A model generated the notes under the pieces. It did no database searches, was not told the DNA's origin, and was given only the letters and a program-made list of their open reading frames with translations. Below, piece after piece: positions 9,913 to 54,998 of a stretch of 64,000 bases of DNA. The DNA comes from Actinomycetospora lemnae. Its GTDB lineage: Bacteria > Actinomycetota > Actinomycetes > Mycobacteriales > Pseudonocardiaceae. The translations under genes were made by a program, and so were the position numbers. Position 1 is the first letter of the stretch, and each line of letters opens with the position of its first letter. The stretch lies in contig NZ_JAQZAO010000002.1 of NCBI RefSeq assembly GCF_028737315.1, positions 248,001 through 312,000 on the forward strand. Direction: 5' to 3'.

Positions 9913-11499
9913 GTGACCGGCGCTGCGCAGGCCCTGCAGGCGCCTGCCGACGTGCCCGGAGACGCCCCCGCCGTGACGCCTCCGGGCGCCACGCCGCCCC
10001 CGCCGACGCCCGACGAGCGGCGCCGGCTGCGCACCGTGCGGCGGTTCGGGACCACCGGCTCGCTGCTCATGGCGGTCGGCGCGCTGGGCTGCGGGGCGAC
10101 GCCCGCGCCGGCGTACAACCCGCTGCTCGGCACGCGGGTGCTCGGCCTGTGGGGCCGCATGCCGACGGTGTCGCTGACGCTCGCCTACCTCGGCATGGGC
10201 ATGCTCGTGCTCGCCTGGCTGTGGCTCGGGCGGCTCGCGTGGCCGGCGCGCGTGCGGCTCTCGGTGCGCCAGCTCACCCGCATCCTCGTCATGTGGATGG
10301 CGCCGCTGGCCGTGGCGCCGCCGCTGTTCTCCACCGACGTCTACGGCTACCTGTCGCAGGCCGAGGTCGTCTCGCGCGGCTTCGACCCCTACATCTACGG
10401 CGCGGCGCAGGCGCTCGGGCTCTCGGACCCGCTGGTCGCGAGCATCCCGACGATCTGGCGCACCACGCCGTCGCCGTACGGGCCCGGATTCCTGACGTTC
10501 GGGCGCCTCATCACCGGGATCGCCGGCGACGACATCGTGCTCGGGATCTACCTGCACCGGGTCCTCGCGCTCGCCGCGCTCGGCCTCGTCATCTGGGCGG
10601 TGCCGCACCTCGCACGGCGGGCGGGCGTCGAGCCGATCGCGGCGCTGTGGCTCGCGATCAGCCCGCTGGTGCTGTTCCACCTGGTCAGCGGCATCCACAA
10701 CGACGCGATCATGCTGGGCGTCGTCCTCGCCGGCATGGAGATCGGCATGCGGCGCTCGTGGGTGCTGGGTGCGCTGCTCATCGGGCTCGGCGCCTCCGGG
10801 AAGATCCCGGCGGTCGTGGCCCTGGGGTTCCTCGCCGCGCACGTGGCGCACGAGCGCGGCGGGGGCTTCGCGCGCCTGGTGCGCTACGGCGCGGGGGTCT
10901 CGGTGCTCGGGCTCGGCACGGTCGCCGCGGTGTCGGTGGGCAGCGGGCTGGGCTTCGGGTGGATCCAGGCCCTCGCCGTGCCGAACCTCCTGCGCAGCTG
11001 GCTCTCGGTCACCACCGACCTCGGGGTGCTCGGCGGCTGGCTCGGCGGGCTGCTCGGCCTCGGCGACCACACCGAGGCCGTCCTCGACCTCACGCGCGCG
11101 GCCGGTCTCGGCGTCGCCGCCCTGGTGTGCGTGCTGCTGGTGTTCATGGTGCTCAACGGGCGCCTGCACGCCGTCGCCGGCATGGGCTACGGCTTCGGCG
11201 CGGTGTTCCTCGCCGGACCCGTGCTGCATCCCTGGTACCTGCTGTGGGCCGTCGTCCCGCTCGCCGCGTCGGTGCGGGACCCGAAGATCCGCGGGTTCGC
11301 CGTCGCGGTCTGCGCGATCGTCGCCCTGCTCGTGCCGCCGACGGGCGCGGACTTCTCGTTCCGCACCTACCAGCTGCCCATGGCCATCACCGCGGCCGCG
11401 CTGCTCGCCCTGGTGCCGCTGGCCGCGGTGCGCGGGCGCGTGCCGCGGACTCCGGAGACGGAGCGGAGCGGAGCTCGACCCGATGCACCGGCCACCTAG
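9913..11499 (+). CDS. mptB: Alpha-(1->6) mannopyranosyltransferase, MptB-like (GT-C membrane enzyme)
   Basis: A polyprenyl-phosphomannose-dependent mannosyltransferase expected to build the alpha-1,6-mannan core of lipomannan/lipoarabinomannan. The 528-residue protein has a Pro-rich cytoplasmic N-terminus (about 1-40), then roughly a dozen hydrophobic segments, with the GT-C catalytic loop FSTDVYGY at 139-146 and the GIHNDA and HPWYLLW motifs later. The GTG at 9913 has no clear ribosome site, but TATCGT at 9899-9904 could be a -10 box for a leaderless transcript. Divergent from sufR, as I recall for Rv1459c/Rv1460. The last codons (ETERSGARP) are a copy of the 27-bp dispersed repeat. Confidence 0.87.
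11454..11480 (+). repeat. 27-bp dispersed repeat, copy at mptB 3' end
   Basis: Ends in AGCGGAGCTCGACC and is identical to the other copies (22832, 28.2-kb array, 40237, 53590) except at two variable positions. It is read in frame as ETERSGARP at the MptB C-terminus. Confidence 0.85.
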
Positions 11500-11509
11500 G
11501 CTGTCGAGC

Positions 11510-12439
11510 GTGTCGGGAGCCGTGCGCGCGCTGGAGGTGCGCGACCTCGTCGTGCGCTACCAGGGACGCGCGGCGGTCGACGGGCTCGACCTCGACCTCG
11601 CGCCGGGCCAGGTGCTCGCCCTGCTCGGGCCCAACGGCGCGGGCAAGACCACGACGGTCGAGGTGTGCGAGGGCCTGCGCGGGCGCGACGCGGGCGAGGT
11701 CCGGGTGCTCGGCACCGACCCCGCCGGCGCGCCGGACGCCCTGCGCGCCCGCCTGGGCGTCATGCCCCAGGGCGGCGGCGCGTACCCCGGGGTGCGCGTG
11801 CGGGAGATGGTCGGGCTCGTCGCGACGTGCTCGGCGCGCCCGCTCGACCCCGACTGGCTCGTCGAGACCCTCGGCCTCGCGTCCTGCGCCCGCACGCCCT
11901 ACAAGCGGCTCTCGGTCGGCCAGCAGCAGCGCCTCGCCCTGGCCTGCGCGGTCGTCGGGCGCCCCGAGCTCGTGTTCCTCGACGAGCCGACCGCGAGCCT
12001 CGACCCGCAGGGCCGGCGGCTCGTGTGGGACCTGGTGCGGGCGCTGCGCGCCGACGGCGTCGCCGTCCTGCTGACCACGCACCTCATGCAGGAGGCCGAG
12101 ACCCTCGCCGACCACATCGTGATCATCGACCACGGGCGCACCGTGGCCGAGGGCTCGCCCGACGACCTCACCGCCGCCGGCGCCGACCGCGAGCTGCGCT
12201 TCCGCGCCGCGGCCGGGATGGACCTGCGCCTGCTGGCGGACGCCCTGCCCGAGGGGTGCACGGTCTCCGAGCCGACGCCGGGCAGCTACCTCGTGGAGGG
12301 CTCGATCGACCCGCAGGTGCTCTCGGCGGTGACGTCGTGGTGTGCGCGCCAGGGCGTGCTCGCCGACGACCTGAGGGTCGCCCGCCGGAGCCTCGAGGAC
12401 GTGTTCCTGGAGCTCACGGGGCGGGAGCTGCGGTCGTGA
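11510..12439 (+). CDS. ABC transporter ATP-binding protein (drug/lipid exporter type)
   Basis: ATPase subunit of a two-gene exporter of the DrrA/Ybh type. From the GTG at 11510 it has 309 residues: Walker A GPNGAGKTT at 40-48, signature LSVGQQQR, Walker B ELVFLDEPTASLD, then a C-terminal extension (about 230-309) typical of exporters that pair with ABC-2 permeases. An ATG at 11483 would add nine residues and overlap mptB; I prefer the GTG 10 bases after the mptB stop. Its stop overlaps the permease start (GTGA at 12436-12439). Substrate unknown; the mptB-ABC-ctaA order (Rv1459c-Rv1456c as I recall) is conserved. Confidence 0.9.
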   Translation: MSGAVRALEVRDLVVRYQGRAAVDGLDLDLAPGQVLALLGPNGAGKTTTVEVCEGLRGRDAGEVRVLGTDPAGAPDALRARLGVMPQGGGAYPGVRVREMVGLVATCSARPLDPDWLVETLGLASCARTPYKRLSVGQQQRLALACAVVGRPELVFLDEPTASLDPQGRRLVWDLVRALRADGVAVLLTTHLMQEAETLADHIVIIDHGRTVAEGSPDDLTAAGADRELRFRAAAGMDLRLLADALPEGCTVSEPTPGSYLVEGSIDPQVLSAVTSWCARQGVLADDLRVARRSLEDVFLELTGRELRS

Positions 12440-13206
12440 CCTTCGAGGCGGGCACCTTCACCCCGGCACCCGGGCGCGGGTCCCTGGGCCGCATGCTCGC
12501 CACGCAGGTGCTGCTCGAGACCAAGCTCGCGCTGCGCCAGGGCGAGCAGGTGCTGCTCACCCTCGTCATCCCGCTCGCCCTGCTCGTCGGGCTCACGCTG
12601 CTGCGCGTCGTCCCGCTGCCCGAGCCGCGGGCGACGTCGGCGCTGGGCACGGTCCTCGCACTCGCCATCATGTCGACGGCCTTCACGAGCCAGGCGATCT
12701 CGCTGGGCTTCGACCGGCGCTACGGGGTGCTGCGCCGCCTCGCCGCGACGGCGGTGCCGCGCTGGCTCATCGTGCTCGGGCGCCTCGGCGGGATGGCGGC
12801 CGTGGTGCTCGTGCAGGTCGTCGTGCTCGCGGCGGTCGCCGTCGCGCTCGGCTGGCGGCCGGGCGCGGGCTCGCCGGGGTGGGTCGTGCTGCTCGTCGTG
12901 CTCGGCACGGCGGCCTTCGGCGCGGTCGGCGTCCTGCTCGGTGGCAGCCTCCGCGCGGAACTGGTCCTCGCCGTCGCCAACATCGTGTGGTTCGTGCTGC
13001 TCTTCGCCGGCGGGGTCCTCGTCCCGGCCGCCGCCCTGCCCGGTCCGCTCGCGACCGTCGTGCAGCTGCTGCCGTCCGGGGCGCTCGCCGAGGGGCTGCG
13101 CACGGCCCTGGTCGGCGGCACCCCGTCGACCGTGCACGTCGTCGTCCTGCTCGCCTGGACCGTCGTCGCCGGCGGCATCGCCGTCCGGACCGTGCGCTGG
13201 TCCTGA
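12436..13206 (+). CDS. ABC-2 type transporter permease
   Basis: Membrane partner of the preceding ATPase. The 256-residue protein has a cytoplasmic N-terminus and six hydrophobic segments, with a GFDRRYGVLRRLAATAVPR loop between the second and third that matches the coupling region of ABC-2 permeases. The GTG start overlaps the ATPase stop codon, so the two subunits are made in step. The substrate cannot be told; a lipid or lipoglycan precursor is only a guess from the mptB neighbour. Confidence 0.88.
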   Translation: MTFEAGTFTPAPGRGSLGRMLATQVLLETKLALRQGEQVLLTLVIPLALLVGLTLLRVVPLPEPRATSALGTVLALAIMSTAFTSQAISLGFDRRYGVLRRLAATAVPRWLIVLGRLGGMAAVVLVQVVVLAAVAVALGWRPGAGSPGWVVLLVVLGTAAFGAVGVLLGGSLRAELVLAVANIVWFVLLFAGGVLVPAAALPGPLATVVQLLPSGALAEGLRTALVGGTPSTVHVVVLLAWTVVAGGIAVRTVRWS

Positions 13207-13211
13207 GCGCG

Positions 13212-13229
13212 CCTACGACCGGTCGTAGG
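13212..13229. promoter_or_regulatory. Perfect 18-bp palindrome upstream of ctaA
   Basis: CCTACGACCGGTCGTAGG is a perfect dyad without a spacer, 5 bases after the permease stop and 43 bases before the ctaA start. A TAGGAT at 13260-13265, 7 bases before the ctaA GTG, fits a -10 box for a leaderless transcript. The dyad may be an operator or part of a terminator. Confidence 0.5.
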
Positions 13230-13272
13230 ACTGATCCGGCTCCGCAGCGCTGCGCGTCCTAGGATCGGCCTC

Positions 13273-14244
13273 GTGCTGGAGCGCCTCCCCGCCACCCCGC
13301 CCCGGCTGATGCGCGGGCTCGCCATGGCCGCGGTCGTCGGCCAGGCGGGCATCGCGGTCACGGGTGCCGTCGTCCGCGTCACCGGGTCCGGGCTCGGCTG
13401 CCCGACCTGGCCCCAGTGCTTCCCGGGCAGCCTCGTGCCCGTCCCGCACCCCGAGATCGCGGTCCTGCACCAGTGGGTGGAGTTCGGCAACCGCCTGCTC
13501 GGGATCGCCCTCGTGCTCGTCACCGGGGCCTGCCTGCTCGCCGCGATCAACGTCCGCCCGCGCCGGCGCCGGCTGATCCTCCTCGCGGCGACGATGCCCC
13601 TCGGCGTGGTCGCGCAGGCCGTCATCGGCGGGATCACGGTGCTCGCGGGCCTGGCCTGGTACACGGTGGCGCCGCACTTCCTCGTCACGATCCCGCTCAT
13701 CTGGCTCGCCGTGCTCCTCGTGCGCGAGTCCTCCCCCGCCGCCGTGGCCGCGCCGCCGGGGACGCCCTGGCGCCCCGCGGTCGCGCCGGCGCTGCGCGGG
13801 CTGCTGGTCGTGACCTCGGTCGTGCTCGTCGCCCTGCTCGTGGCCGGCACGCTCGTCACGGCCGCCGGACCGCACGGCGGCGACGCCGCCACCCCCCGCC
13901 TGGCCGCGATCCCGCTCCCCTCGCTCGCGACGGCGCACGCCCACCTGCTGTTCGCGTTCCTCGGCCTGCTCGTGGGCGTGGGCTTCATGGTCCACGCGGT
14001 CGGCGCGCCCCGGGCGGTGATCGTGCGACTGCGGGTGCTCGTCGTCCTGACGCTCGCGCAGGGAGCGCTCGGCGGTGTCCAGTACGCCCTCGGCGTCCCC
14101 GAGCTCCTCGTGGCACTGCACGTCCTCGGCGCCGTGGTCATCGTCGCGGCGACGGCCTGGCTGTGGTCGGCGACCGCCGAGCCGGACGCCGTGACGCTCG
14201 CGGCCTCCGACGTCCCCGCTCCCGCGCTGGCCGGGAGGTCCTGA
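13273..14244 (+). CDS. ctaA: CtaA, heme A synthase
   Basis: Oxidises heme O to heme A for the aa3-type cytochrome oxidase. The 323-residue protein has eight hydrophobic segments and the paired histidines that hold the hemes: HQWVEFGNR and PHFL in the first half, HAHLLFAF and HVLGA in the second. The TGSGLGCPTWPQC loop carries the conserved cysteine pair outside the membrane. Its stop lies one base before the qor start, whose ribosome site is inside ctaA. ctaB, for the preceding step, is 2.2 kb away on the other strand. Confidence 0.95.
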   Translation: MLERLPATPPRLMRGLAMAAVVGQAGIAVTGAVVRVTGSGLGCPTWPQCFPGSLVPVPHPEIAVLHQWVEFGNRLLGIALVLVTGACLLAAINVRPRRRRLILLAATMPLGVVAQAVIGGITVLAGLAWYTVAPHFLVTIPLIWLAVLLVRESSPAAVAAPPGTPWRPAVAPALRGLLVVTSVVLVALLVAGTLVTAAGPHGGDAATPRLAAIPLPSLATAHAHLLFAFLGLLVGVGFMVHAVGAPRAVIVRLRVLVVLTLAQGALGGVQYALGVPELLVALHVLGAVVIVAATAWLWSATAEPDAVTLAASDVPAPALAGRS

Positions 14245-14245
14245 C

Positions 14246-15211
14246 GTGCGCGCCATCCGCGTGACCCGCCTCGGCGGCCCCGAGGTGCTCGAGCCCGCCG
14301 ACCTGCCCGACCCCGAGCCCGGCGAGGGCGAGGCGCTCGTCGAGCTCGCGGCGATCGGCGTCAACTACATCGACACCTACTTCCGCACCGGCACCTACCC
14401 GACGTCGCTGCCCTTCGTGCCCGGCCTCGAGGGCGGCGGCACCGTGCGCGCCGTCGGCGCCGGCGTCACCACCGTCGCGCCCGGCGACCGCGTGGTCTGG
14501 ACCAACACCCTCGGCTCCTACGCGACGCTCGCGACCGTCCCGGCCGCCGAGCTCGTCACCGTCCCGGACGCCGTGGACCTCGAGACCGCCACCGCGGTGG
14601 TCCTCCAGGGCATGACCGCCCACTACCTGCTCCACGACACCTACCCGGTGGCGCCGGGCGACGTCGTGCTCGTGCACGCCGGCGCCGGGGGCATGGGCCT
14701 GCTGTTGTGCCAGATGGCCCGCGCGCTCGGAGCCCGGGTGCTCGCGACGACCTCGTCGGAGGAGAAGGACGCCCTGGCCCGCGGGGCCGGCGCGCACGAG
14801 ACCCTGCGGTACGGGGACGACCTCGCCGACCGGGTCCGCGCCCTCACCGACGGCGAAGGCGTCGCGGCGGTCTACGACGGCGTCGGCGCCGCCACCTTCG
14901 ACGCGTCCCTGGCGAGCCTGCGCATCCGGGGCGTGCTGGCCCTCTACGGCGCCGCGAGCGGCCCGGTCCCGCCCGTCGACCCCCAGCGCCTCAACAGCGG
15001 CGGCTCGCTCTACCTCACCCGCCCGTCCCTGCACTGGCACGTCCGCACCCCCGAGGCCCTGGCGGCCCGGGCGTCCGACGTGTTCTCCGCGGTCGCGGCC
15101 GGCGACCTGTCGGTGCGCATCGGCGGCCGCTACGCCCTCGACGACGCCGCCACCGCCCACCGCGACCTCCAGTCGCGCCGGACGACGGGCAAGCTGCTCC
15201 TGCTGCCGTGA
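14246..15211 (+). CDS. qor: Quinone oxidoreductase (zeta-crystallin type, MDR family)
   Basis: NADPH-dependent quinone reductase of the zinc-free medium-chain dehydrogenase family. It has 321 residues: a GroES-like N-terminal domain with GVNYIDTYFRTGTYP, then a Rossmann domain with the NADP-binding VHAGAGGMGLLLCQMA loop, and the C-terminal TTGKLLLLP ending typical of Qor. The zinc ligands of alcohol dehydrogenases are missing. It follows ctaA directly with a GGGAGGTC ribosome site and probably shares its transcript. Confidence 0.93.
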   Translation: MRAIRVTRLGGPEVLEPADLPDPEPGEGEALVELAAIGVNYIDTYFRTGTYPTSLPFVPGLEGGGTVRAVGAGVTTVAPGDRVVWTNTLGSYATLATVPAAELVTVPDAVDLETATAVVLQGMTAHYLLHDTYPVAPGDVVLVHAGAGGMGLLLCQMARALGARVLATTSSEEKDALARGAGAHETLRYGDDLADRVRALTDGEGVAAVYDGVGAATFDASLASLRIRGVLALYGAASGPVPPVDPQRLNSGGSLYLTRPSLHWHVRTPEALAARASDVFSAVAAGDLSVRIGGRYALDDAATAHRDLQSRRTTGKLLLLP

Positions 15212-15222
15212 GCTCTCCGTCC

Positions 15223-15277
15223 CGATCTCTCGAGGATGTCGTCAGCGCACCGCCGTGGTGACACTCCCGGGAGATCG
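15223..15277. repeat. 55-bp palindromic element, copy A
   Basis: Two 18-base arms (15223-15240 and 15260-15277) pair at 14 of 18 positions around a 19-base centre. The outer end is CGATCTC/GAGATCG. It has the same 18-19-18 layout as copy B at 15412. Confidence 0.8.
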
Positions 15278-15411
15278 AACGAGAGAGGTCGTCTCGGACG
15301 CCGTGGCGTGTCAGCAGGCCCCGATCTCGTGGGGCGGCGCGGGCCGTCGTCGATCCGGGCTCGTCGCGTCGGCTCGTGCCGACGGCGAGGGGGTCCCGCG
15401 CACCTCCAGAT

Positions 15412-15466
15412 CGATCTCCCGAGAGTGTCGCCAGTGTCCAGCAGCCCGGACACTCTCGAGAGATCG
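15412..15466. repeat. 55-bp palindromic element, copy B
   Basis: Arms 15412-15429 and 15449-15466 pair at 17 of 18 positions around a 19-base centre, with core GACACTCTCGAGAGATCG. Together with copy A it fills most of the 312-base gap between qor and the next gene; I see no gene in that gap (15212-15523). Confidence 0.85.
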
Positions 15467-15523
15467 AGATGGAGAGCTGTCGGCGCACGGAACCGCCCGG
15501 GCGCGGGCTGCGTCGAAGCCGGC

Positions 15524-16477
15524 ATGGACCTCGAGCGACCGTTCCGCGGGTCCGAAGCCGTCGGGCGTGGCCTCCTCACGCCGGGACGGCTCCGCGGGCC
15601 GGGATTCGTCCCCCTCGGGCACGACGTCTACGTGAGCGCCGGGACGGCCGTCGACCAGGTCACGCTGGCCCGCGCCGCGATGCTGCGCCACCCCGACGGG
15701 AGCCTGACGGGGACGGCCGCGGCGGTGCTCTGGGGCGCCGGCGCGGCGGTCGCGGACGTCACCACCACCACGGAGCTCTCGGGGCTGACCGAGGTCCTGG
15801 TGCCGGGCGCGGGCATCCGATCGCGGGGAGACCTCGACGTCCGGCGCGCCGCGCTGCCGCAGGACGAGGTCGTCACGTGGCCGGACGGGAGCGACGGCGC
15901 GGTCCTGCGCCTCACCTCGCCCGCGCGGACGGTCCTCGAGGTCGCCCGCCGCCTGCCCACGGTGGAGGCGGTGGTGGTCGCCGACGCCCTCGCCCGGCGC
16001 TGCGGGCTCGGAGGGGCCGACGTCGTCGCGCTGGCCGACCGGCACACCGGCGAGCGTGGGATGGCCCGGGTGCGCGCGGCTGCGGCCCTGATGAACCCGC
16101 GGACCGACACGCCCCGGCGCACCCGGGTGCGGCTCGGGGTGCTGTCCGCGCGCCTGCCGACCCCGGTGGTGGGCGCGGTGGTGACGGTGGCGGCGACCGA
16201 GGAGGTCGTCGCCGAGCTCGACCTGGCCTGGCCGGGGACACGCGGCGGCGTGCTCGTGGACCGCGATCCCGCGGACGCGTGGTCGCGCGCGGGCGCGCTG
16301 CTCGACCACGGGTGGGAGGTGGTGTCGCTCGGGGCCGGCGGCGAGCAACCCGTGGCGCAGGTGGTCGAGCGCATCGTCGCGTTCTCCGCGCGCCTCGACC
16401 GGCTGCGGTGGCGCGACGTCCCGGACATGCGCGGACGCCTCCCGCGACGGCCGTCCGCGCCGCGGCTGTGGGTCTAG
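15524..16477 (+). CDS. AbiEi/endonuclease-like actinobacterial protein of unknown role
   Basis: A 317-residue protein of a family common in actinobacteria. The N-terminal half (MDLERPFRGSEAVGRGLLTPGR ... FVPLGHDVYV) resembles the winged-helix/AbiEi-like domain of type IV antitoxins. The C-terminal third, with AELDLAWP and LVDRDP, resembles the DUF559/very-short-patch endonuclease fold, but I do not see a full D-(E/D)xK catalytic set. No toxin partner adjoins it. The ATG at 15524 starts right at the family's usual N-terminus; the upstream open frame runs through the palindromic repeats and is not coding. Function is uncertain. Confidence 0.8.
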   Translation: MDLERPFRGSEAVGRGLLTPGRLRGPGFVPLGHDVYVSAGTAVDQVTLARAAMLRHPDGSLTGTAAAVLWGAGAAVADVTTTTELSGLTEVLVPGAGIRSRGDLDVRRAALPQDEVVTWPDGSDGAVLRLTSPARTVLEVARRLPTVEAVVVADALARRCGLGGADVVALADRHTGERGMARVRAAAALMNPRTDTPRRTRVRLGVLSARLPTPVVGAVVTVAATEEVVAELDLAWPGTRGGVLVDRDPADAWSRAGALLDHGWEVVSLGAGGEQPVAQVVERIVAFSARLDRLRWRDVPDMRGRLPRRPSAPRLWV

Positions 16478-16483
16478 CGGAGC

Positions 16484-20022: not shown

Positions 20023-21150
20023 ATGGCCAGCAACACCCCCCTCGCCGACCTCTCCGCGGCCGGCGTGTCGGTCTGGCTCGACGACCTGTCCCGCCAGCGC
20101 ATCGAGTCCGGCAACCTCACCTCGCTGATCGAGGAGTACGAGGTCGTCGGCGTCACCAGCAACCCGACGATCTTCGCCAGCGCCTTCGCGCAGGCCGACC
20201 ACTACGCCGAGGACCTCGACGGGCTCGCCGCCCGCGGCGCCTCGGTGGAGGAGGCGATCCGCGAGCTCACCACCGAGGACGTCCGGCGCGCCTGCGACGT
20301 CTTCCGCAGCGTGTGGCAGCGCACCGGCGGCGTCGACGGCCGCGTCTCGCTCGAGGTCGACCCGGGCAAGGCCCACGACACCGAGGGCACCGTCGCCGAG
20401 GCCGCCGACCTGTGGAAGACGGTCGACCGGCCCAACCTCATGATCAAGATCCCGGCGACCCTCGAGGGCATCCCGGCGATCACGCGCACGCTCGCCGAGG
20501 GCATCAGCGTCAACGTCACCCTGATCTTCTCGGTCGAGCGCTACCGCCAGGTCATGGACGCGTTCCTCGCCGGCATGGAGCAGGCCCGCGCCAACGGGCA
20601 CGACCTGTCGTCGATGGCGTCGGTCGCGTCGTTCTTCGTCTCGCGCGTGGACTCCGAGGTCGACAAGCGCCTCGATGCCATCGGCACCGAGGCCGCGCTG
20701 AACCTGCGCGGCACCGCGGCGATCGCCAACGCCCGCCTCGCCTACGCGGCCTACCTCGAGGTGTTCGGCACCGAGCGGTGGGCGGCGCTCAAGGGCGCCG
20801 GGGCCAAGGCCCAGCGCCCCCTCTGGGCCTCGACCGGCGTGAAGAACAAGGCCTACCCGGACACGCTCTACGTCACGGAGCTGGTCGCCCCGAACACCGT
20901 GAACACGATGCCGGAGGCGACGCTGACGGCGTTCGCCGACCACGGCGAGCTGCACGGCGACGCGGTCAGCGGCACCGAGGAGGCGGCGCGCGAGGTGTTC
21001 GCGGGGCTCAGCCACGTCGGCATCGACATCGACGACGTCTTCCTCACGCTCGAGAACGAGGGCGTCCAGAAGTTCGACGACTCCTGGCAGGAGCTCACCG
21101 CCACGGTGTCCGACCAGCTGACCCGCCGGAGCCCGGAGCAGGCGCAGTGA
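20023..21150 (+). CDS. tal: Transaldolase
   Basis: Transfers a dihydroxyacetone unit between sugar phosphates. The 375-residue protein belongs to the longer TalB-like actinobacterial group. The Schiff-base lysine is K142 in LMIKIPAT; the family start [11 protein letters not shown] and [10 protein letters not shown] are clear, as is [15 protein letters not shown] strong ribosome site (GAGGAGG) precedes the ATG. The stop overlaps the pgi GTG (GTGA at 21147-21150). Confidence 0.97.
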
Positions 21151-22883
21151 GCGGCGGCGTCGAGGTCGACATCGTCGACTCCGGGCTCTCCGACGCCGCC
21201 GACGCGCTGGTCGAGAAGCTCGTCGGCGACGCCGCGGCGTCGAAGCTCTCGGCCGGCGACGCCACCCTGTGGGGTCCGGACGCCGAGCCCGAGGCGAGCA
21301 AGCGCCTCGCCTGGGTGACCCTGCACGAGACCTCGCGCCCGCTGGTCGACGAGCTGACCGCCCTGCGCCGCGAGCTGCACGACGACGGCGTCGACCGCGT
21401 CGTGCTCGCGGGCATGGGCGGCTCGTCGCTGGCCCCCGAGGTCATCTGCGCGACCCGGTCGGGCGGGGCGATCGGTGGCGAGTTCCCGCTGGTCGTGCTG
21501 GACACCACCGACCCGATGCAGGTCTCCGACGCGCTCGCGGGCGACCTGTCCCGCACGGTGCTCGTCGTGTCGTCGAAGTCGGGCGGCACCGTCGAGACCG
21601 ACAGCCAGCGCCGGGTGTTCGCCGAGGTGTTCGAGGCCAACGGCATCGACGCCGCCTCGCGCATGGTCGTCGTCACCGACCCGGGCACGAAGCTCGCGGA
21701 CCTCGCCCGCGACCAGGGCTACCGCAAGCTCATCGAGGCCGACCCGGGCGTCGGTGGGCGCTACTCGGCGCTCACCGCGTTCGGTCTCGTGCCCTCGGCG
21801 CTCACCGGCGTCGACGTGGGCGCGCTGCTCGACGAGGCGGCCGCGGTCGCCCCGGAGCTCGCGCGCGACAGCGCCGACAACCCCGCGATCCGCCTCGCCG
21901 CGGCCATGGCGGCGGCGCACGGCGCCGGCGCGGAGAAGGTCGTGCTGGCCGACACCGGCTCCGGGCTGGTCGGCTTCGGCAACTGGGCCGAGCAGCTCAT
22001 CGCCGAGTCCACCGGCAAGCAGGGCACCGGTCTGCTCCCGGTCGTCGTGGAGGGCAGCCCCGATGCGGATCCAGGGAGTGCACCGGGCTTCGGCGACCAC
22101 GGCAGCGACGCCACCGCGGTGGCCGTCGGGCCGGCGGAGTCCGGCGCACAGGTGTCGGTCACCGGCACGCTCGGCGGGCAGTTCCTGCTCTGGGAGCACG
22201 CCGTCGCGCTGGCCGGGCGCCTCCTCGGGATCAACCCGTTCGACCAGCCCGACGTCGAGTCCGCCAAGCAGGCCACGCGTGACCTGCTGGCCGCGGCCGG
22301 CGACGGGTCGGGCGGCGACGGTGGGGCCGCCGCCGACGACGCCCCGATCGCCACCGACGGCCCGGTCGAGATCCGGGCCGCGGGCGACGCGAGCTGGCTC
22401 GGGACGCCGGACACCGTCATCGACGCCATCCAGGCGCTGGTGGACGCGGCGCCGGACCACGGCTACATCGCGATCCAGGCCTACCTCGACCGGCTCGACG
22501 ACGCCTCGTTCGCGACGCTGCGCCCGGAGCTGGCGAAGGCGACGGGGCTGCAGACCACGTTCGGGTGGGGGCCGCGGTTCCTCCACTCGACCGGTCAGTA
22601 CCACAAGGGCGGGCACCAGAACGGCGTGTTCCTGCAGATCACGGGCTCGGTGGCCGACGACCTGGCCATCCCCGGGCAGCCGTTCACGTTCGGCACGCTC
22701 GAGCACGCGCAGGCGCGCGGGGACGCCGGGGTGCTCGCGGCGGCCAAGAACGGCGGCACGCCGCGGCCGGTCCTGCGGCTGCACCTGGCGGACCGCGCCG
22801 CCGGGCTGGTGGCGCTCGCGAACGCGGTGCGGGAGACGAAGCGCAGCGGAGCTCGACCAGACGACGGGGTGGTGGGCCGGTGA
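21147..22883 (+). CDS. pgi: Glucose-6-phosphate isomerase (tal-linked type)
   Basis: Interconverts glucose-6-phosphate and fructose-6-phosphate, returning carbon to the oxidative branch. The 578-residue protein has two SIS sugar-isomerase domains: [15 protein letters not shown] in the first and [20 protein letters not shown] ... NPFDQPDVE with [13 protein letters not shown] in the second. This is the type found next to, or fused to, transaldolase, not the animal-type Pgi. An Asp/Gly/Ala-rich linker lies around residues 390-405. The C-terminal tail [10 protein letters not shown] is a copy of the 27-bp dispersed repeat. Start and stop overlap tal and zwf by four bases. Confidence 0.93.
22832..22858 (+). 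repeat. 27-bp dispersed repeat, copy at pgi 3' end
   Basis: Same element as at mptB, ending AGCGGAGCTCGACC, here read as ETKRSGARP in the same frame, eight codons before the pgi stop. Confidence 0.85.
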
Positions 22884-28152: not shown

Positions 28153-28309
28153 CTCCGTCTCCCACTGCTCGGGTCGAGCTCCGCTGCGCTCCGTCTCCCA
28201 CTACTCGGGTCGAGCTCCGCTGCGCTCCGTCTCCCACTACTCGGGTCGAGCTCCGCTGCGCTCCGTCTCCCACTACTCGGGTCGAGCTCCGCTGCGCTCC
28301 GTCTCCCAC
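28153..28309. repeat. 36-bp tandem array built on the 27-bp dispersed repeat
   Basis: GTCTCCCA recurs at 28157, 28193, 28229, 28265 and 28301, giving four complete 36-bp periods plus a partial one. The units are identical except for one base in the first (GCTCGG for ACTCGG). Each unit holds the 27-bp element (minus-strand sense) plus a 9-base linker. There are no spacers, so it is not a CRISPR array. The stop codon of the small membrane protein copy B lies inside it. Confidence 0.95.
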
Positions 28310-28533
28310 GGCCGCAGGCTGCGGTCGTACGCCGCCCACAGCTGCCGGTGGGCCGCCACCCGGCGGGCCAGCTCGCCCAGCAGCACCGCGTCCCCGCGCA
28401 CCGTGTGCGGCCGGCGCGTCACCGGCCAGGCCGGGTCGCGACCCGTCGGGTCCTGCTCACCGCGGCTGTCGACGCCGTAGCGCGCGACCGCCAGGAACCC
28501 CAGGACCAGCAGCACTCCCCAGAACGTGACCAT
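28273..28533 (-). CDS. Small membrane protein, DPTGRDPAW family, copy B
   Basis: An 86-residue paralogue of the protein at 26208-26483: an N-terminal hydrophobic segment (about 3-17), RYGVDSR, DPTGRDPAW, a helical middle, and YDRSLRPWE. The last residues [10 protein letters not shown] are encoded by the final unit of the 36-bp array, and the TAG comes from the array linker. I choose the ATG at 28533 (GAGGGG nine bases upstream, and it aligns with copy A); an ATG at 28542 would add three residues. It is divergent from an Lrp-type regulator. Function unknown. Confidence 0.82.
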   Translation of the reverse strand: MVTFWGVLLVLGFLAVARYGVDSRGEQDPTGRDPAWPVTRRPHTVRGDAVLLGELARRVAAHRQLWAAYDRSLRPWETERSGARPE

Positions 28534-28582
28534 CTCGACCATCCCCTCGCACCCCTGCGCTGATGAGGACAATTCTCGAAGG

Positions 28583-39320: not shown

Positions 39321-40216
39321 TCGCGCCCCACGTCGCGGTGCGACACCGTCACGCGCACGCCGTCCTCGCCGGTCATGCGCCGGGCGAGCTCCTCGGCGAT
39401 CGCGACGCTGCGGTGCTTGCCGCCGGTGCAGCCCACCGCGACGGTCAGGTAGCGCTTGCCCTCGCGGCGGTAGCCCGCGCCGACCAGGCGCAGGAGCTCG
39501 AGGTAGCGCTCGAGGAACTCCTCGGCGCCCTCCTGGGACAGCACGTAGTCGGAGACCACGGCCTCGCGCCCGTCGTGCTCGCGCAGCTCGGGGATCCAGT
39601 GCGGGTTGGGCAGGAAGCGCATGTCGACGACGAGGTCGGCGTCGGGCGGCAGCCCGTGCTTGTAGCCGAACGAGACGACGGTGACGCTGTGCCCGACGTC
39701 GGCCGCGGCGTCGCCGAAGGCGCTCTCGATGGCCGTGCGCAGCTGGTGCACCGACCGGTTCGAGGTGTCGACGACGAGGTCGGCCTGGTCGTGCAGCGGG
39801 GCGAGCAGCTCGCGCTCGGCGCGGATGCCGTCCGACAGGCGCCCGTCGCCCTGCAGCGGGTGGGAGCGGCGGTTCGACTCGAAGCGGCGGATGAGCACGG
39901 CGTCCGACGCGTCGAGGAACAGCACCCGCGGGCGGTGGCCGCGGGCGTCGAGCTCCTTGATGACCGCCCCCAGGTCGGCGGTGAACGCGCGGCTGCGCAC
40001 GTCCATGACCACCGCGATCCGCGTGACCTGCCCCGACGAGCGCGCCCCGAGGTCGACCATCGTCTCGATCAGCTCGGGCGGCAGGTTGTCGACGACGAAC
40101 CAGCCGAGGTCCTCGAGCACCTTGGCGGCCGTGCTCCGCCCGGCGCCCGAGAGCCCCGAGACGATCGCGACCTCGATCCCGCCCGGGTGCGGGGGTGCCC
40201 CCGCCCGGTCCGTCAT
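39317..40216 (-). CDS. rapZ: RapZ/YvcJ family nucleotide-binding protein
   Basis: RNase adapter/nucleotide hydrolase family, 299 residues. The P-loop reads [12 protein letters not shown], with Arg in place of the usual Lys; I recall this as normal for actinobacteria. [57 protein letters not shown] and [10 protein letters not shown] are family signatures. The ATG overlaps the uvrC stop codon (ATGA at 40213-40216). Confidence 0.96.
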
Positions 40217-42276
40217 GCCGTCCCCCCGGTCTCGATGGTCGAGCTCCGCTGCGCTGCGTCTCCGTCGTCGAGCGCGTCGAGCACCGCCTCCGCCGTGCGC
40301 CGGCCGACGCCGGGCACCTCGGTGATCTGCTCGACCGTCGCGGCCCGCAGCTTGCGCACCGAGCCGAAGTGCTTGAGCAGCGCCGTGCGCCGGGCCTCGC
40401 CCAGCCCGGGCACGCCGTCGAGCGCGGACGCCGTCATCCGCGTCGAGCGCTTCTGGCGGTGGTAGGTGATCGCGAAGCGGTGCGCCTCGTCCCGGACGCG
40501 CTGGAGCAGGTAGAGCGCCTCGCTCTGGCGCGGGAGGATCGCCGGGTCCTCCTCGCCGGGGAGCCAGACCTCCTCCAGGCGCTTGGCCAGCCCCACCACC
40601 GCGACGTCGCTGATCCCGAGCTCGCCCAGGACCTCGGCCGCGGCCGCCACCTGGGGGGCGCCGCCGTCGACGACCAGCAGGTTCGGCGGGTACGCGAACT
40701 TCCGCGGGCGGCCGGTCGTCGGGTCGATGCCCGGCAGCGGGCCCTCGTCGGGCGCGACCTCGCCGGTGGCCGGGGCACCGTCGCTGGTCTCCCCCGCGCA
40801 CGCCGTGTCGGTGTGGTCGGGCGCCCTGTCGGCGTGCTCCCCTGATTCCGCGGTCTCCTTGAGGTAGCGCGCGAAGCGCCGGCGCACCACCTCCGCGATC
40901 GCCGCGACGTCGCCGCCCTCGGCGCCGCCGCGGATCGAGTAGCGCCGGTAGTCGGCTTTCTTCGGCAGCCCGTCCTCGAACACCACGAGGCTCGCCACCA
41001 CGTCGGAGCCCTGCACGTGGCTGACGTCGGTGCACTCGATGCGCAGCGGCGCGGTGTCGAGGCCCAGCTGTTCCTGGAGCTCCTCGAGGGCGGCGCTGCG
41101 CGCGGTGAGGTCGCCGGCGCGGCGCAGCTTGTGCTGGGTGAGCGCCTCCTTGGCGTTGCGCTCCACGGTCTCGGCGAGCGTGCGCTTGTCGCCGCGCTGG
41201 GCGACGCGCAGCGAGACCCGTGAGCCCCGCAGCTCCGAGAGCCACTGGCTCAGCGCCGGCGCGTCGTCGGGCATCGCCGGGACGAGCACCTCGCGCGGCA
41301 CCGGCTGCACGGCGTCGTCCGCGGAGCCCGCGAGCGCGGCCTGCTCGCCGTAGAACTGCGCGAGGAACTGCCCGACGAGGTCCGGCACGTCACTGTCGGC
41401 CTCGGTCTCGACGACCCAGCCGCGCTGGCCGCGGACCCGCCCGCCGCGGACGTGGAACACCTGGACGGCGGCCTCGAGCTCGTCGGTCGCGAACGCGACG
41501 ACGTCGGCGTCGGTGCCGTCGCCGAGCACGACGGCCTGCTTCTCGACGACGCGCTTGAGCGCCCCCGCGTCGTCACGCAGCCGCGCGGCCTTCTCGAAGT
41601 CCATGTCGGCCGCGGCGACCTGCATGTCCTTCTCGATGCGGCCGATGAGCTGGTCGGTGTGGCCGGCGAGGAAGTCGCAGAAGTCGAGGACGATCTGCCG
41701 GTGCTCCTCGGCGCTGACGCGGCCGACGCACGGCGCCGCGCACTTGTCGATGTAGCCGAGCATGCAGGGGCGCCCGATCTGCCCGTGGCGCTTGAACACC
41801 CCGCCCGAGCACTGGCGCGCCGGGAACACCCGCGTCAGCAGCTTCACCGTCTCGCGGATCGCCCAGGCGTGGGCGTAGGGCCCGAAGTACCGCACGCCCT
41901 TCTTGCGGGGACCCCGGTAGACCCGCAGCTGCGGGTACTCCTCGTTCAGCGTGACCGCGAGGACCGGGTAGGTCTTGTCGTCGCGGTAGCGGACGTTGAA
42001 CCGCGGGTCGAACTCCTTGATCCAGTTGTACTCGAGCTGGAGGGCCTCGACCTCGGTGTGGACCACCGTCCACTGCACGGCCGCCGCGGTGGTGACCATC
42101 CGTCGCGTGCGCGGGTGCAGACCGGCCACGTCGGCGAAGTACGAGTTGAGCCGGCTGCGCAGGCTCTTGGCCTTCCCGACGTAGATGACCCGCCCGTTCT
42201 CGTCCGAGAACCGGTACACGCCGGGCGCCTCCGGGATGCTCCCCGGGGCGGGTCGGTACGTCTGCGGGTCGGCCAT
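40213..42276 (-). CDS. uvrC: UvrC, excinuclease ABC subunit C
   Basis: Makes both incisions in nucleotide excision repair. The 687-residue protein has an N-terminal GIY-YIG nuclease ([25 protein letters not shown] split over residues 18-42), a UvrB-binding UVR segment, the RNase H-like endonuclease with [16 protein letters not shown], and a C-terminal double helix-hairpin-helix. An acidic insertion of about 45 residues (near 480-525) sits in the second nuclease. The tail [15 protein letters not shown] comes from a copy of the 27-bp repeat, read in another frame than in mptB and pgi. Confidence 0.97.
40237..40263 (-). repeat. 27-bp dispersed repeat, copy at uvrC 3' end
   Basis: On the minus strand it ends AGCGGAGCTCGACC like the other copies. 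It encodes part of the UvrC C-terminal tail, eight codons before the stop. Confidence 0.85.
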
Positions 42277-48052: not shown

Positions 48053-48745
48053 TCAGGGCGCGGGCTCCTCGGGCAGGGCCAGCAGGCCCTCGACGACGTC
48101 GTCGAGGGCGGGCGCGGTGACGTGCGGGCGGGCGACGGCGTCGGGGATGCGGCCCTCGAGGCGCTCGCAGAACCCGCCGACCAGGCCCGCCGACACCGCG
48201 CCGTGCACGTCCCACGAGTGCACGGCCACGAGCGCGGTCCGGGCGGGCGGCGTCGCGGTCCGCTCGCACGCCCAGTGGTAGACCCGCGCCGGTGGCTTGA
48301 ACATCTTCAGCTCCGCGCACGACATGACGTCGGTGAACCGGTCGCGCACCCCGCCGGCCTCGAGCGCCGCGCCCGCGACCTCCGCCGAGCCGTGCGTGAA
48401 CCCGTAGGCCGGCACACCCGCCTCGGCGAGCCGCTGCAGCGCCGGCGCGACGTCGGGGTGCACGGGCAGCTCCCGGAAGCCGTCGAGCACCGAGGCGACC
48501 TGGTCGTCGGTGAGGTCGCGCCCGCAGGTGCGTCGCAGCATGTCGGCGGCGACGGTCGCGAACGGCGGCGCCTCGCCGGCCAGCGTCATCGCCATGCCCT
48601 GGTGCAGCAGCCGCGCGAAGAACAGCTCCAGCTCGTGACCGGGGCGCCCCAGCGCCTCGATCCGGGGGCGCAGACCCTCCAGCTGCAGGCACGTCTCGAA
48701 CAGGTCGAACAGGACGACCTGGGGCCTCCGGGCGGGTGCACTCAT
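48053..48745 (-). CDS. HAD-superfamily hydrolase (2-haloacid dehalogenase-like)
   Basis: A 230-residue hydrolase of the type II haloacid dehalogenase group. The nucleophile region is VLFDLFETC (D14); YGFTHGSAEV is motif II, FKPPARVYHWA carries the motif III lysine, and AVHSWDVHGA is motif IV. A helical cap lies between motifs I and II. The substrate may be a haloacid or a phosphate ester. The gene is exactly framed by two 43-bp palindromic elements (48007 and 48747), so it may have entered as a unit. I chose the ATG at 48745; an upstream open frame runs through the palindrome. Confidence 0.87.
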   Translation of the reverse strand: MSAPARRPQVVLFDLFETCLQLEGLRPRIEALGRPGHELELFFARLLHQGMAMTLAGEAPPFATVAADMLRRTCGRDLTDDQVASVLDGFRELPVHPDVAPALQRLAEAGVPAYGFTHGSAEVAGAALEAGGVRDRFTDVMSCAELKMFKPPARVYHWACERTATPPARTALVAVHSWDVHGAVSAGLVGGFCERLEGRIPDAVARPHVTAPALDDVVEGLLALPEEPAP

Positions 48746-48746
48746 G

Positions 48747-48789
48747 CGTGAGCAGTTGCCCCGCGTATCGCCGCGGAAACTGCTCACGA
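48747..48789. repeat. 43-bp palindromic element, copy 2
   Basis: CGTGAG ... CTCACG with arms of 11-12 bases around a 16-base centre containing GTATCG. It begins two bases upstream of the HAD start, and the pyrD stop codon (48784-48786) lies inside it. Confidence 0.85.
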
Positions 48790-49784
48790 CGCGGCGAGCT
48801 CCCGGAGCACCCGCCGCGGCCAGGCCGGGCCGCCGTAGACGAACCCGGTGTAGGCCTGCACGAGCGTGGCGCCGGCCTCGAGGCGGGCGCGGGCCTCGGC
48901 GCCCGAGTCGATCCCGCCGACCGACACGAGCGTCAGCCGCTCCCCCACGCGCGCCCGCAGCCGCGCCAGCACCGCCCGCGCGGGTCCCACCAGCGGTGCG
49001 CCGGAGAGCCCGCCCGCCCCCGCCGCCTCGACCACGTCCGGTGCCGAGGCGAGATCGGACCGCGCGACCGTCGTGTTGGTGGCGACGATCCCGTCGAGCC
49101 CCTGCGCCAGGGCCAGGTCGGCGACGGCGTCGACGCCCGCGTCGTCCAGGTCGGCGGTGATCTTCACGAGCAGCGGCGTCGCGCCGACCTCGTCGCGCAC
49201 GGCGGCGAGCAGCGGCTCGAGGGCGTCAACGCCCTGCAGGTCACGCAGCCCGGGCGTGTTCGGGGAGCTGACGTTGACGACGACGTAGTCGGCGTGCGGG
49301 CCCAGCACCCGCGCGGAGTACCGGTAGTCCGCGACGGCGTCGGACGCGGTCTTCGAACGCCCGATGTTGACGCCGACCACGGTGCCCGCACCCCGCTGCC
49401 GCAGCGCCGCGAGGCGGGCCGCGACGACGTCGGCGCCGGCGTTGTTGAACCCCATCCGGTTGACCAGCGCCCGGTCGGCCGGCAGGCGGAACAGCCGCGG
49501 GCGCGGGTTGCCCGGCTGCGGGCGCGCGGTCACCGTGCCGACCTCCACCGCCCCGAACCCCAGCCGCGCGAGGCCGCGCACGCCCTCGGCGTCCTTGTCG
49601 TAGCCGGCCGCGACGCCGAGCGGGTTGGCGAAGCGCAGACCCATGGCCTCGACGGGCGCGACGTCCGCGGACGGCGCGGGCAGCACCGGCGTCGCGGCGC
49701 GCAGGGCGGTGACGCCGACGCGGTGGGTCAGCTCCGCGGGCACCCGCGTCGCGACGTGCCGGAAGAGCAGTTCGTAGGCGTCCA

Positions 49785-49785
<1 letters not shown>
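48784..49785 (-). CDS. pyrD: Dihydroorotate dehydrogenase, class 2 (quinone)
   Basis: Fourth step of pyrimidine synthesis, oxidising dihydroorotate with a quinone at the inner membrane face. The 333-residue protein has the class 2 N-terminal helix ([18 protein letters not shown]), the FMN-binding [40 protein letters not shown] with the catalytic serine, and SVGGIDSG ... YTGFVYGGP. The ATG shares one base with the preceding gene's stop (TGATG at 49783-49787). Its own stop is inside the 43-bp element. Confidence 0.96.
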
Positions 49786-52677
<2,892 letters not shown>

Positions 52678-52747
52678 TGCGGTCTCCTCGTTCTCGGTGG
52701 TCGAGCCCCGCTGCCCGCCCGCCATCATCCTCAGGACGCGGGGCCCC

Positions 52748-52770
52748 GGCATCACCACGGTGGTGATGCC
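52748..52770. terminator. Perfect 23-bp palindrome after rpe
   Basis: GGCATCACCAC, one central base, then GTGGTGATGCC. It lies five bases after the rpe stop and 71 bases before ribE. It may be a terminator for rpe or an operator for the rib genes. Confidence 0.55.
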
Positions 52771-52774
52771 GCTC

Positions 52775-53458
52775 TCATCGTCCGGCCAGGTGCGCCGACG
52801 CCCGTGCCGCCTGGTCGCGCAGCGCCTCCACCGCCCGTTCGGGGTCGTCGGCGCCGTACACCGCCGAGCCCGCGACGAAGCAGTCGACGCCCGCCTCGGC
52901 GGCCTGCTCGACGGTGTCGCGGCTGATCCCGCCGTCGATCTCGACGAGGACGTTGAGGTGCCCGGTGTCGACGAGCCGCCGCGCCGTGCGCACCTTGTCG
53001 AGCACCTCGGGCATGAACTTCTGCCCGCCGAACCCGGGCTCGACGCTCATGACGAGCAGGGTGTCGTAGTCGCGCAGCACCTCGACCCAGTCCTCGAGCG
53101 GGGTGCCCGGCTTGATCGACAGACCGGCGAGCGCGCCCGCCGCCCGGATGTCCCGCGAGACCTTGCGCGGGTCGTGGGCGGCCTCCGCGTGCACCGTGAC
53201 GTTGCGCGAGCCGGCCTCGGCGTAGCCGGGCGCCCAGCGGTCCGGATCGTTGATCATCAGGTGGCAGTCGAGCGGGATCGCCGTTGCCCGCTCCAGGGCC
53301 TCGACGACCGGCAGCCCGAGCGTCAGGTTCGGCACGAAGTGCCCGTCCATGACGTCGACGTGCAGCCAGTCCGCGCCCGGGACCGCGGCCGCCTCCTCCG
53401 CCAGGCGCGCGAAGTCGGCGGACAGGATGCTCGGAGCGATCATCGGGGCACGCGCCAC
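52775..53458 (-). CDS. rpe: Ribulose-5-phosphate 3-epimerase
   Basis: Epimerises ribulose- and xylulose-5-phosphate, linking to the pentose-phosphate genes at 17.8-26 kb. With GTG 53458 it has 227 residues; ATG 53443 gives 222. [32 protein letters not shown] (metal ligands) and [16 protein letters not shown] are diagnostic. TACCAT seven bases before the GTG could be a -10 box for a leaderless message, which favours the GTG. Confidence 0.95.
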
Positions 53459-53507
53459 GTGACTGATGGTAGTGGCCTCGTCGCTGTCGTTGGGCCGGGC
53501 GGGGTCC

Positions 53508-54998
53508 TCAGCGCCTCCGGAGGGCGGCGGCGTACATGGCGTCGGTGCCGTGGCGGTGGGGCCAGAGCTGCACGCCGGGGCCGTCGACGGGAGACGCAGC
53601 GGAGCGGAGCTCGACCCCTGGAACGGCCGCGGTGTCCGGCACCTCCGGCAGCAGCGCCGGGGTGTCGAGCAGCTCGGCTCCGGTCTCGGCCGCGACGGCG
53701 ACGACGACGGCCGTGGTCTCCTCGGGGTGCGGCGAGCAGGTCGCGTACGTGACGACGCCGCCGGGGCGCGTGCGCTCGAGGGCGGCGCGCAGCAGGCTGC
53801 GCTGGAGCTCGGTGAGCTCGGCGACGTCCTCGGGCTGCCGGCGCCAGCGGGCCTCGGGACGCCGGCGCAGCGCCCCGAGCCCGGTGCAGGGCGCGTCGAC
53901 GAGCACGCGGTCGTAGGCCTCCTCGGGCAGCGTGATCTCGCGGGCGTCACCGGTGTGCACGCGCACGCCCAGCCCCTCGGTGGCCTGCTCGACCAGCCGC
54001 GCGCGGTGCGGTGCGCGGTCCACGGCGTCGAGCGTTGCGCCCTCGATCGCGGCGAGCGCCCCGAGCATCACGGCCTTGCCGCCCGGCCCGGCGCACAGGT
54101 CGAGCCAGCGGGTGTCGTCCCCCTCGACCGGCGCGCGGGCGGCGACGAGCGCCACGAGCTGGCTGCCCTCGTCCTGGACCACCGCGAGGCCCTCGCGGAC
54201 CGGGGCGAGGTCGCCCGGGTCGCCGCCCTCGGTGAGCAGCACGCCGTACGGCGAGTAGGGCGACTCCTCGCCGCCGGTGATGGCCGCGAGCTCCTCGGCG
54301 CTGATCTCGCCGGGCCGCGCGGCGAGGTGCACGGCGGGGCGGGCGTCGTCGGCGGCGAGGGCGGCAGCCAGTTCATCGGTGCCGCCCAGGGCCTGCGCGA
54401 ACACCTCCGCGATCCACCGCGGGTGGGCGTGGGCCAGGGCGAGCCGGCCCAGGGCGTCGGCCGGGGCGAGGCGGTCGACCCACGCGGCCTCGTCCCGCTC
54501 GGCGACCCGGCGCAGCACGGCGTTGACGAACCCGGTCGGCCGCGAGCCCGCCCGCGCGCGGACCAGCTCGACGACCGAGCTCACCGCCGCGTGCGGGGGG
54601 ATGCGCGTGCGCAGGAGCTGCTGGGCGCCGAGGCGCAGGGCGTCGAGCACGACCCCGTCGAGATCGGCGAGCGGGCGGTCGCAGCAGGCCCCCAGCACCG
54701 TGTCGAGCAGGCCCTGCGCGCGGCAGGCGCCGTAGGTGAGGTCGGTGGCGAGCGCGGCGTCGCGGCCGGTGATCCGCCGCTCGCGCAGCAGGTTCGGCAG
54801 GGTCAGGTTCGCGTAGGCGGCGTCCTCGCGGACCGCGCGCAGCGTGTCGAGGGCGGCCTCGCGGGCGGGGTCGCCGCTCGGCGGGCGTGCCGGGCCCTGG
54901 CGTCCGCGGGGCGGCCCGCTGCGGCGCTTGGCGTCCGGCTTGCGGCGTGGGCCGCGCCCGGAGCGGTGCCCGCCGGGCGGGACGGAGCTGTCGGTCAT
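53508..54998 (-). CDS. rsmB: RsmB, 16S rRNA m5C967 methyltransferase
   Basis: SAM-dependent RNA methyltransferase (Sun/Fmu). The 496-residue protein has a basic tail, a NusB-like RNA-binding domain (about 45-175), then the methyltransferase with [14 protein letters not shown], the cysteines of VDAPCTG and [11 protein letters not shown], and the end [20 protein letters not shown] copy of the 27-bp repeat encodes [11 protein letters not shown] in a loop about 30 residues before the C-terminus. ATG 54998 is chosen; GTG 55004 would add two residues. Confidence 0.95.
53590..53616 (+). repeat. 27-bp dispersed repeat, copy inside rsmB
   Basis: Plus-strand sequence ends AGCGGAGCTCGACC. It is antisense to rsmB, so the gene reads the opposite strand of the element, unlike the other copies. 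It lies 82 bases from the rsmB stop. Confidence 0.8.

Follow-up and report, generated by a model that had tools for sequence, protein, structure and literature searches.

A 27-bp sequence, GGAGACGNAGCGNAGCGGAGCTCGACC, recurs in a 64,000-nucleotide stretch (here the window) of the genome of Actinomycetospora lemnae (contig NZ_JAQZAO010000002.1, positions 248,001 to 312,000). Exact searches of the 64-kb window find eight copies at five loci, identical except at positions 8 and 13 (N8 and N13), in agreement with an earlier note on this DNA; a search allowing up to six mismatches adds a single match, at 13233, with six mismatches. The copies on the forward strand start at 11454, 22832 and 53590, and those on the reverse strand at 40237 and, as an array, at 28172, 28208, 28244 and 28280. 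The copy at 11454..11480 (N8=G, N13=G; class A, the 27-bp form) supplies the last codons of mptB (9913-11499), and the copy at 22832..22858 (N8=A, N13=C) forms the end of a pgi-like gene (21147-22883). The array (28172..28306) consists of four identical units (28172-28198, 28208-28234, 28244-28270 and 28280-28306) with a period of 36 and a 9-bp spacer, and it spans the 3' end of a small open reading frame of 89 residues (28273-28542) and the gap beyond. The remaining copies lie near the end of uvrC (40237..40263, N8=C, N13=C; gene 40213-42276) and within rsmB (53590..53616, N8=C, N13=G; gene 53508-55004). Translations confirm that mptB, the pgi-like gene and the 89-residue frame carry C-terminal tails read in one shared frame, that the uvrC tail comes from another frame, and that the rsmB copy is antisense. 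MptB was named by NF038066, and UvrC and RsmB by Pfam and NCBIfam models; the pgi-like product matches PF00342 and, at a score under the cut-off of that model, the isomerase portion of PRK09533, and profile searches gave no family match for the 89-residue frame. These five loci are not typical of the placement of the element in the whole genome.

In the complete genome (G000 below; other G numbers denote other genomes, and an L number with a figure denotes a locus and a position in it) there are 154 copies with at most two mismatches, 69 forward and 85 reverse. The reversed-pattern control gives none, and the repeat is therefore not a product of chance. With at most one mismatch, all 18 Actinomycetospora genomes carry the element, at 1 to 116 copies each: G000 has 116, whereas its closest relative, G005, which is 93% identical over 15 kb, has 1, and still only one with up to three mismatches. 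Other copy-rich genomes are G014 (107) and G011 (90), and other copy-poor ones are G017 (6) and G006 (9). In the same sample and at the same threshold, the element was found in none of 43 further genomes from 41 other genera, and in a 298-genome sample of the order it occurs outside the genus in only two genomes of one further genus, with one copy each. Among the matches listed from a named collection (80 of at least 108 stretches) are Actinomycetospora, Williamsia and Mycobacterium pinniadriaticum. Viral contigs contained no exact match, and a literature search found no paper on this repeat in the library covered.

Comparison with related species identifies the copies as discrete insertions. 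The mptB copy is a net insertion of 36 bp at a site that is empty in G005 and seven other near relatives and occupied in G012. The copy in the pgi-like gene is likewise a net insertion of 36 bp, empty in G005; at the same site G011 has a 45-bp form (class B) and G008 a class A copy with two mismatches. The uvrC copy adds 36 bp relative to G005, and the array is missing from G005, while in G003 the homologous gene carries an element at the corresponding point. Of the 11 single sites in the G005 stretches fetched, nine show a net gain of 36 bp in G000, one of these being printed as 30 owing to a separate 6-bp gap, and the two exceptions, 38 bp at L012 and 35 bp at L152/3096, are both intergenic. 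As 36 bp make 12 codons without a stop, interrupted proteins stay in frame. The comparison of orthologues with and without the tail, which the earlier note had proposed, shows that most aligned orthologues have none. Its proposal that conservation reflects the DNA or mobility rather than the peptides gains support for the DNA level and for mobility from these insertions set against orthologous empty sites.

The boundaries of the insertions are sharp. The left flank ends in CG, with frequencies of 0.70 and 0.83 for the two bases in 69 single copies of G000 and 0.69 and 0.72 in 64 from other genomes, and bases 10 and 11 on the right are GG (0.70 and 0.64; 0.70 and 0.56). TCG stands at the second or third right-hand base in 51 of 157 single copies, against about 6.5 per position in the background, so the right nine bases look like part of the insert. 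Similarity between the left and right 9 bp at an offset of 36 (z 6.4) and clear single cases, such as L004 and L322, hint weakly at a 9-bp target duplication; in arrays the spacer is duplicated together with the core. At sites shared between species, the right 9 bp diverge by 29%, the left 9 bp by 13.7% and the flanks by 14.2%; N8 and N13 diverge by 31.5% and the core by 7.2%, in core pairs that were mostly picked by pattern. These values pool 27 pair rows. They suggest that the core changes more slowly than positions that look neutral, but because most of the pairs were pattern-picked, some were reciprocal and a few doubtful, selection on the core is not claimed.

The element occurs in two length classes. 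Class B measures 45 bp, has the same ends as class A and inserts as 54 bp. Among end pairs no more than 3 kb apart in the loci examined, 266 are 27 bp and 9 are 45 bp long, with single cases of 22, 26, 41 and 47 bp; 27 more pairings, each seen once and spanning 191 to 2964 bp, were attributed to chance. The DNA examined, about 2.46 Mb, yielded no convincing long element bounded by the two ends. The middle of the 45-bp form is present in 17 of the 18 genus genomes, at 0 to 42 copies.

The two ends change together. Among 250 class A shapes at positions 3-5 and 22-23, from DNA mostly fetched with a GA/TC pattern, 237 read AGA/TC, and 8 of the other 13 are changed yet complementary at both pairs (5 ACG/CG, 3 ACA/TG); AGG/CC, GGA/TC and CGA/TC, each seen once, are complementary at positions 4-5, and AGA/CC and ACA/CG, also seen once each, are not. 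A second search fixed C at position 4, left the right dinucleotide free and gave rows for 8 of the 18 genomes; the 150 rows transcribed comprise 119 of 27 bp, 24 of 45 bp and 7 of other lengths, some of them chance-like. The 119 class A rows read CG/CG (64), CA/TG (39), CA/CG (8), CA/TC (2) and CG/CC (2), with CC/CG, CA/GC, CG/TC and CG/TG once each, and position 5 is strongly associated with position 22 (P=5e-21). The 24 class B rows repeat the pattern (P=0.002) with CA/TG (12), CG/CG (8), CG/TG (3) and CA/CG (1), and the reversed-pattern control in G000 gave 4 matches against 58. Set beside MITEs, which a DDE transposase moves and which have terminal inverted repeats, the element shows complementary ends at positions 4-5 and 22-23 alone. 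The two variable positions, N8 and N13, each lie in the middle of a CGNAG motif. The folding energies of class B, relative to shuffled sequences, have z values of -1.3 and -1.2. An Rfam search at E up to 5, run on ten loci with the 45-bp form or its middle module, returned only four weak matches below gathering scores, none of which was judged relevant.

Placement relative to genes was surveyed at 83 distinct sites (at most two mismatches) in the G000 loci retrieved from among the listed matches, with genes called by a purpose-made codon-score caller that is likely to err; at L155, for example, the copy is called antisense, yet the locus reads as a plausible protein in the sense direction. Mid-gene positions account for 47 of the sites and intergenic space for 18 (5.8 expected); the start zone, no more than 45 bp from a start, has 12 (4.9 expected), and the stop zone, defined in the same way, has 6 (5.0 expected, P=0.64). 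The earlier claim that the repeat settles at the 3' ends of genes thus fails as a rule: in G000 the copies are placed regardless of stop codons, the distribution that the note itself had named as contrary to its proposal. A C-terminal preference was rejected for this genome only, as an excess in the stop zone persists elsewhere in the genus, where 63 sites divide into 25 in mid-gene, 15 intergenic, 13 in the start zone and 10 in the stop zone (about 3.3 expected); there the start zone and intergenic space are enriched as well. The 18 sites of Williamsia comprise 5 mid-gene, 9 intergenic, 2 start-zone and 2 stop-zone copies. The excess at stops, at starts and between genes is consistent with insertions being purged less strongly where they spare the interior of a gene.

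Genic copies lie mostly in the sense direction, with sense to antisense ratios of 50:15 in G000, 37:11 in the rest of the genus and 9:0 for Williamsia, and the majority of sense copies are read in phase 0 as GD.A.RSST (31 of 50, 30 of 37 and 5 of 9, respectively). The tail ETERSGARP, on which the earlier note had dwelt, is therefore not the typical product, as the commonest genic setting is mid-gene, sense and phase 0. This bias is read as the survival of harmless insertions, with an insertion bias as the alternative. Neighbouring copies less than 400 bp apart are on the same strand in 17 of 17 pairs. Interrupted genes of G000 encode a PutA-like protein (L144), NirB (L147), a UvrA-like protein (L026) and D-Ala-D-Ala ligase (ddl, L022). 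In nirB (869 codons) there are three copies, at 3440, 3695 and 4031, all in the sense direction and phase 0, with 2, 1 and 0 mismatches.

Occupancy of individual sites differs even between sister species. The pairs G000/G005, G010/G011 and G008/G004, separated by about 7 to 11% in the tree, each differ at the same site, L139/7255, which holds class A (+36) in G000 and G012 and class B (+54) in G010 and G008, and is empty in G005, G011, G004, G006, G002 and G017. Some pairs agree at other sites: L139/3981 is filled in G010 as well as in G011, and ddl 1501 in G004 as well as in G008. On a tree of 10 species and an outgroup, with sister pairs supported at 1.000, eight sites require 21 changes of presence, in a set where the G000/G005 contrast is built in because the sites were chosen as occupied in G000. 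Shuffled labels require 19.6 changes on average, and in 94% of the shuffles 21 changes or fewer suffice, so occupancy of these eight sites shows no phylogenetic signal. G005 has a possible scar at L139/3981, where G012 and G017 also have 10-12 extra bases, and its remnant-like sequence at ddl 1501 may be the original target rather than a remnant. The ddl gene has two insertion sites, 527 and 1501; the latter is occupied in 6 of the 10 genus genomes aligned across it, with variable right flanks.

A similar recurrence is seen outside the genus in ileS, the gene for isoleucyl-tRNA synthetase (IleRS), identified by TIGR00392 with a partial match for L339. The ileS segment was matched in 242 of 248 genomes of a Mycobacterium-group sample. 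Among 31 aligned sequences (30 loci and M. pinniadriaticum), 36 bp stand at the same codon in G123, G165 and G338, the last of which matches M. pinniadriaticum without a difference across this stretch; 27 others have no insert. All three lineages share an identical core, and in G123 and G165 the ileS copy is the only one in the genome (up to three mismatches). With the insert left out (810 columns), each of the three genes is nearest to an insert-free one: G123 to G446 (0.895, against 0.802 to G165 and 0.684 to G338), G165 to G212 (0.817, against 0.802 to G123), and G338 to G398 and G334 (0.698, against 0.684 to G123). Independent insertion at one codon and transfer of the segment are both possible explanations. 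In Williamsia muralis, ileS (L081 5735) has the element at a position other than the Mycobacterium-group site, and the gene has thus been struck in two genera at two places.

It is highly probable that each copy is a discrete insertion and that copies are often gained and lost. They are best explained, with a probability of roughly 60%, by a mobile element that is very small and non-autonomous, whose two ends are recognised jointly, probably as folded single strands, and which a putative enzyme moves. Together, the conserved 27 bp and about 9 variable bp to their right would add about 36 bp net to the target, in most cases with CG on the left and GG on the right, in either orientation and in genes and gaps alike. 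The ends would be recognised together, as the complementary changes at 4-5 and 22-23 suggest, and the freely varying bases would sit in the loops of potential hairpins, GNA in class A and GANN in class B. DNA folded as a single strand may be the active form, on which an enzyme would work in trans, and repeated excision would empty the same sites, which are then refilled. Arrays of period 36 would arise by local duplication of unit and spacer. A more specific version, in which ultra-stable GNA/GANN mini-hairpins of single-stranded DNA define a new class of mobile DNA that an enzyme without relation to a RAYT (a Y1 tyrosine transposase that moves repetitive extragenic palindromic, or REP, elements) precisely inserts and removes in trans at preferred sites, with essential genes in many species repeatedly gaining and losing the same 12-codon insert, is offered only tentatively and is rather doubtful.

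Several observations weigh against the mobile element. No mobilising enzyme was found in a search for which Y1_Tnp was the only family considered. In folding energy, class A forms do not surpass shuffled sequences (z of 0.1 to 1.1 as DNA and 0.2 to 0.7 as RNA), and the predicted fold differs from the covarying one. Of the 119 class A rows whose position 4 is C, 16 break the complementarity of the ends, and a small number of sub-family events, or recognition of inverted ends in double-stranded DNA, could account for the covariation. Insertion size also varies: G000 has +33 at ddl 527 (G012 has +36), and at ddl 1501 the aligned bases number 102 to 128 in occupied alleles and 69 to 79 where the site is empty. 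The flank similarity is weaker once codon phase is controlled for: 10 of 157 copies agree at 7 or more of 9 positions, compared with 0 to 5 at 12 control shifts. The tree sites were picked for occupancy in G000, and the single ileS codon struck three times in the Mycobacterium group could owe its inserts to segment transfer.

Enzyme-free copying is an unlikely alternative, in which replication would switch templates at short homologies such as GGGAG or CGG and thereby copy the element, and slippage would remove it. Some targets already have GGGAG or GGGAGAC, like the start of the element (22832, 28172 and ddl 1501), G005 has a possible scar at L139/3981, and arrays duplicate the spacer with the core; however, random switching would not be expected to yield inserts of near-constant size in two length classes, nor to couple the ends or keep the boundaries sharp, and in most copies the bases after the insert do not go on as GGAG, with A following GG in about 10%. 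It is also improbable that the 27 bp form a host DNA site under selection, bound by a chromosome-organising or repair protein, for which position matters little and copies come and go. Such a site would account for the near-invariance of 25 of the 27 positions while N8, N13 and the right 9 bp drift by about 30%, and for an identical core in three ileS lineages, in two of which it is the sole copy in the genome. Set against this are the one copy of G005 compared with 116 in its close relative, the derivation of the 7.2% core divergence mostly from pattern-picked copies, and the fact that binding alone leaves discrete 36-bp insertions at reused sites unexplained.

An RNA route, by which an RNA copy would enter transcripts or the sense strand and then be copied back, would explain the orientation bias of genic copies in all three groups, but it is very unlikely, as the bias is mostly confined to one phase, which selection for harmless peptides explains equally well, and intergenic copies are common. 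Mobilisation as a REP element by a RAYT has even less in its favour and is already largely refuted in the genus. Small size, a GGAG start and coupled ends recall such elements; nevertheless, none of the 18 genomes of the genus has Y1_Tnp (PF01797), against matches in 5 of 14 for the control search, and RAYT mobilisation was rejected on this result. In addition, there is no stable palindrome, 65 of the 83 sites are genic, and all close pairs share a strand. The similar endings of three genes in the window might suggest ordinary conserved protein tails or chance, a reading with a negligible probability that was refuted by the tail-free orthologues, by copies of the same DNA in other frames, antisense and between genes, and by the control count of 0.

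Among known systems, cyanobacterial small dispersed repeats (SDRs) were reportedly termed mobile in the title of Elhai et al. 2008. As far as that title and SDR5 (PMC4390886) allow comparison, they resemble the present element as tiny, dispersed mobile repeats, whereas the actinobacterial element belongs to another phylum, has no fixed octamer target, adds 36 or 54 bp net, inserts in frame in genes and has coupled ends. Rickettsia palindromic elements, as described in the part of the source used here (PMC10969869), are palindromes of about 150 bp that stand in frame in many unrelated genes and are translated as part of the protein. The actinobacterial element also inserts in frame in unrelated genes; in contrast, it measures 27 or 45 bp, forms no stable palindrome and occupies sites that differ between close species. 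REP elements and REP doublets forming hairpins (REPINs) are, in the sections drawn upon, interspersed sequences of 20-40 bp that form tandem clusters including their flanks (PMC3733652, PMC3116915), with end tags GTAG or CGTC (PMC3733652). The element shares the small size, the interspersion and the tandem clusters with flanking sequence; it begins with GGAG and has CGTC 3 bp from its end on the other strand. Unlike the REP/RAYT systems so described, it is accompanied by no Y1_Tnp gene, is mostly genic (18 of 83 sites intergenic), has same-strand close neighbours (17 of 17) and, with a folding energy no better than shuffled, shows no palindromic hairpin core. To our knowledge, no link between GNA or GNNA mini-hairpins and mobile elements has been proposed. 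Such mini-hairpins, among them GCGNAGC, are an established ultra-stable form of DNA and were studied as oligonucleotides (PMC4686876); class A contains GCGNAGC with the variable base at the centre of the loop, and class B CCGAYRGG with variable bases in the loop, a stability that the energy models do not reflect.

Two further features of the window belong to the same family. The reverse-strand match at 13233..13259 is an intergenic copy of the CG/CG sub-family (GGACGCGCAGCGCTGCGGAGCCGGATC, two mismatches to that form), with flanks TCCTAGGAC and TCCTACGAC that overlap its start; the extra sequence is also present in G008 and G006 and missing in G005 and the other relatives aligned. The middle module of the 45-bp form (GGGGAGCACGCCGACAGGG) lies on the reverse strand at 40824..40842, inside uvrC, besides the 27-bp element near the end of that gene, and the stretch is 18 bp longer than in G005. 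At two unrelated loci, L264 (reverse strand, about 920) and L291 (about 2392), a 24-bp longer stretch contains GAGCACGCCGA[TC]AGGGGGT where relatives read TCCCGACGCCGGGT; the module seems to insert alone into a hairpin-like target. The same module (GAGCACGCCGATAGG) lies between unrelated inverted repeats at L293 (about 1344), L296 (reverse strand, about 304) and L330 (reverse strand, about 2816), namely GACAGCA..TGCTGTC, GCAAGC..GCTTGC and GCTGAC..GTCAGC, with no relevant Rfam match, as if pairing of the outer stem mattered and its sequence did not.

Very small dispersed repeats are widespread in bacteria, and their movement is seldom seen directly. The actinobacterial element would be an unusually small mobile DNA, and close species pairs supply clean empty and filled alleles, near-constant sizes, site reuse and a natural experiment in the contrast between the 1 copy of G005 and the 116 of A. 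lemnae. With such alleles and this contrast, the moving enzyme could be sought by species comparison and tested in the laboratory. Conserved proteins, including D-Ala-D-Ala ligase at two sites and IleRS, accept a 12-residue insert more than once.

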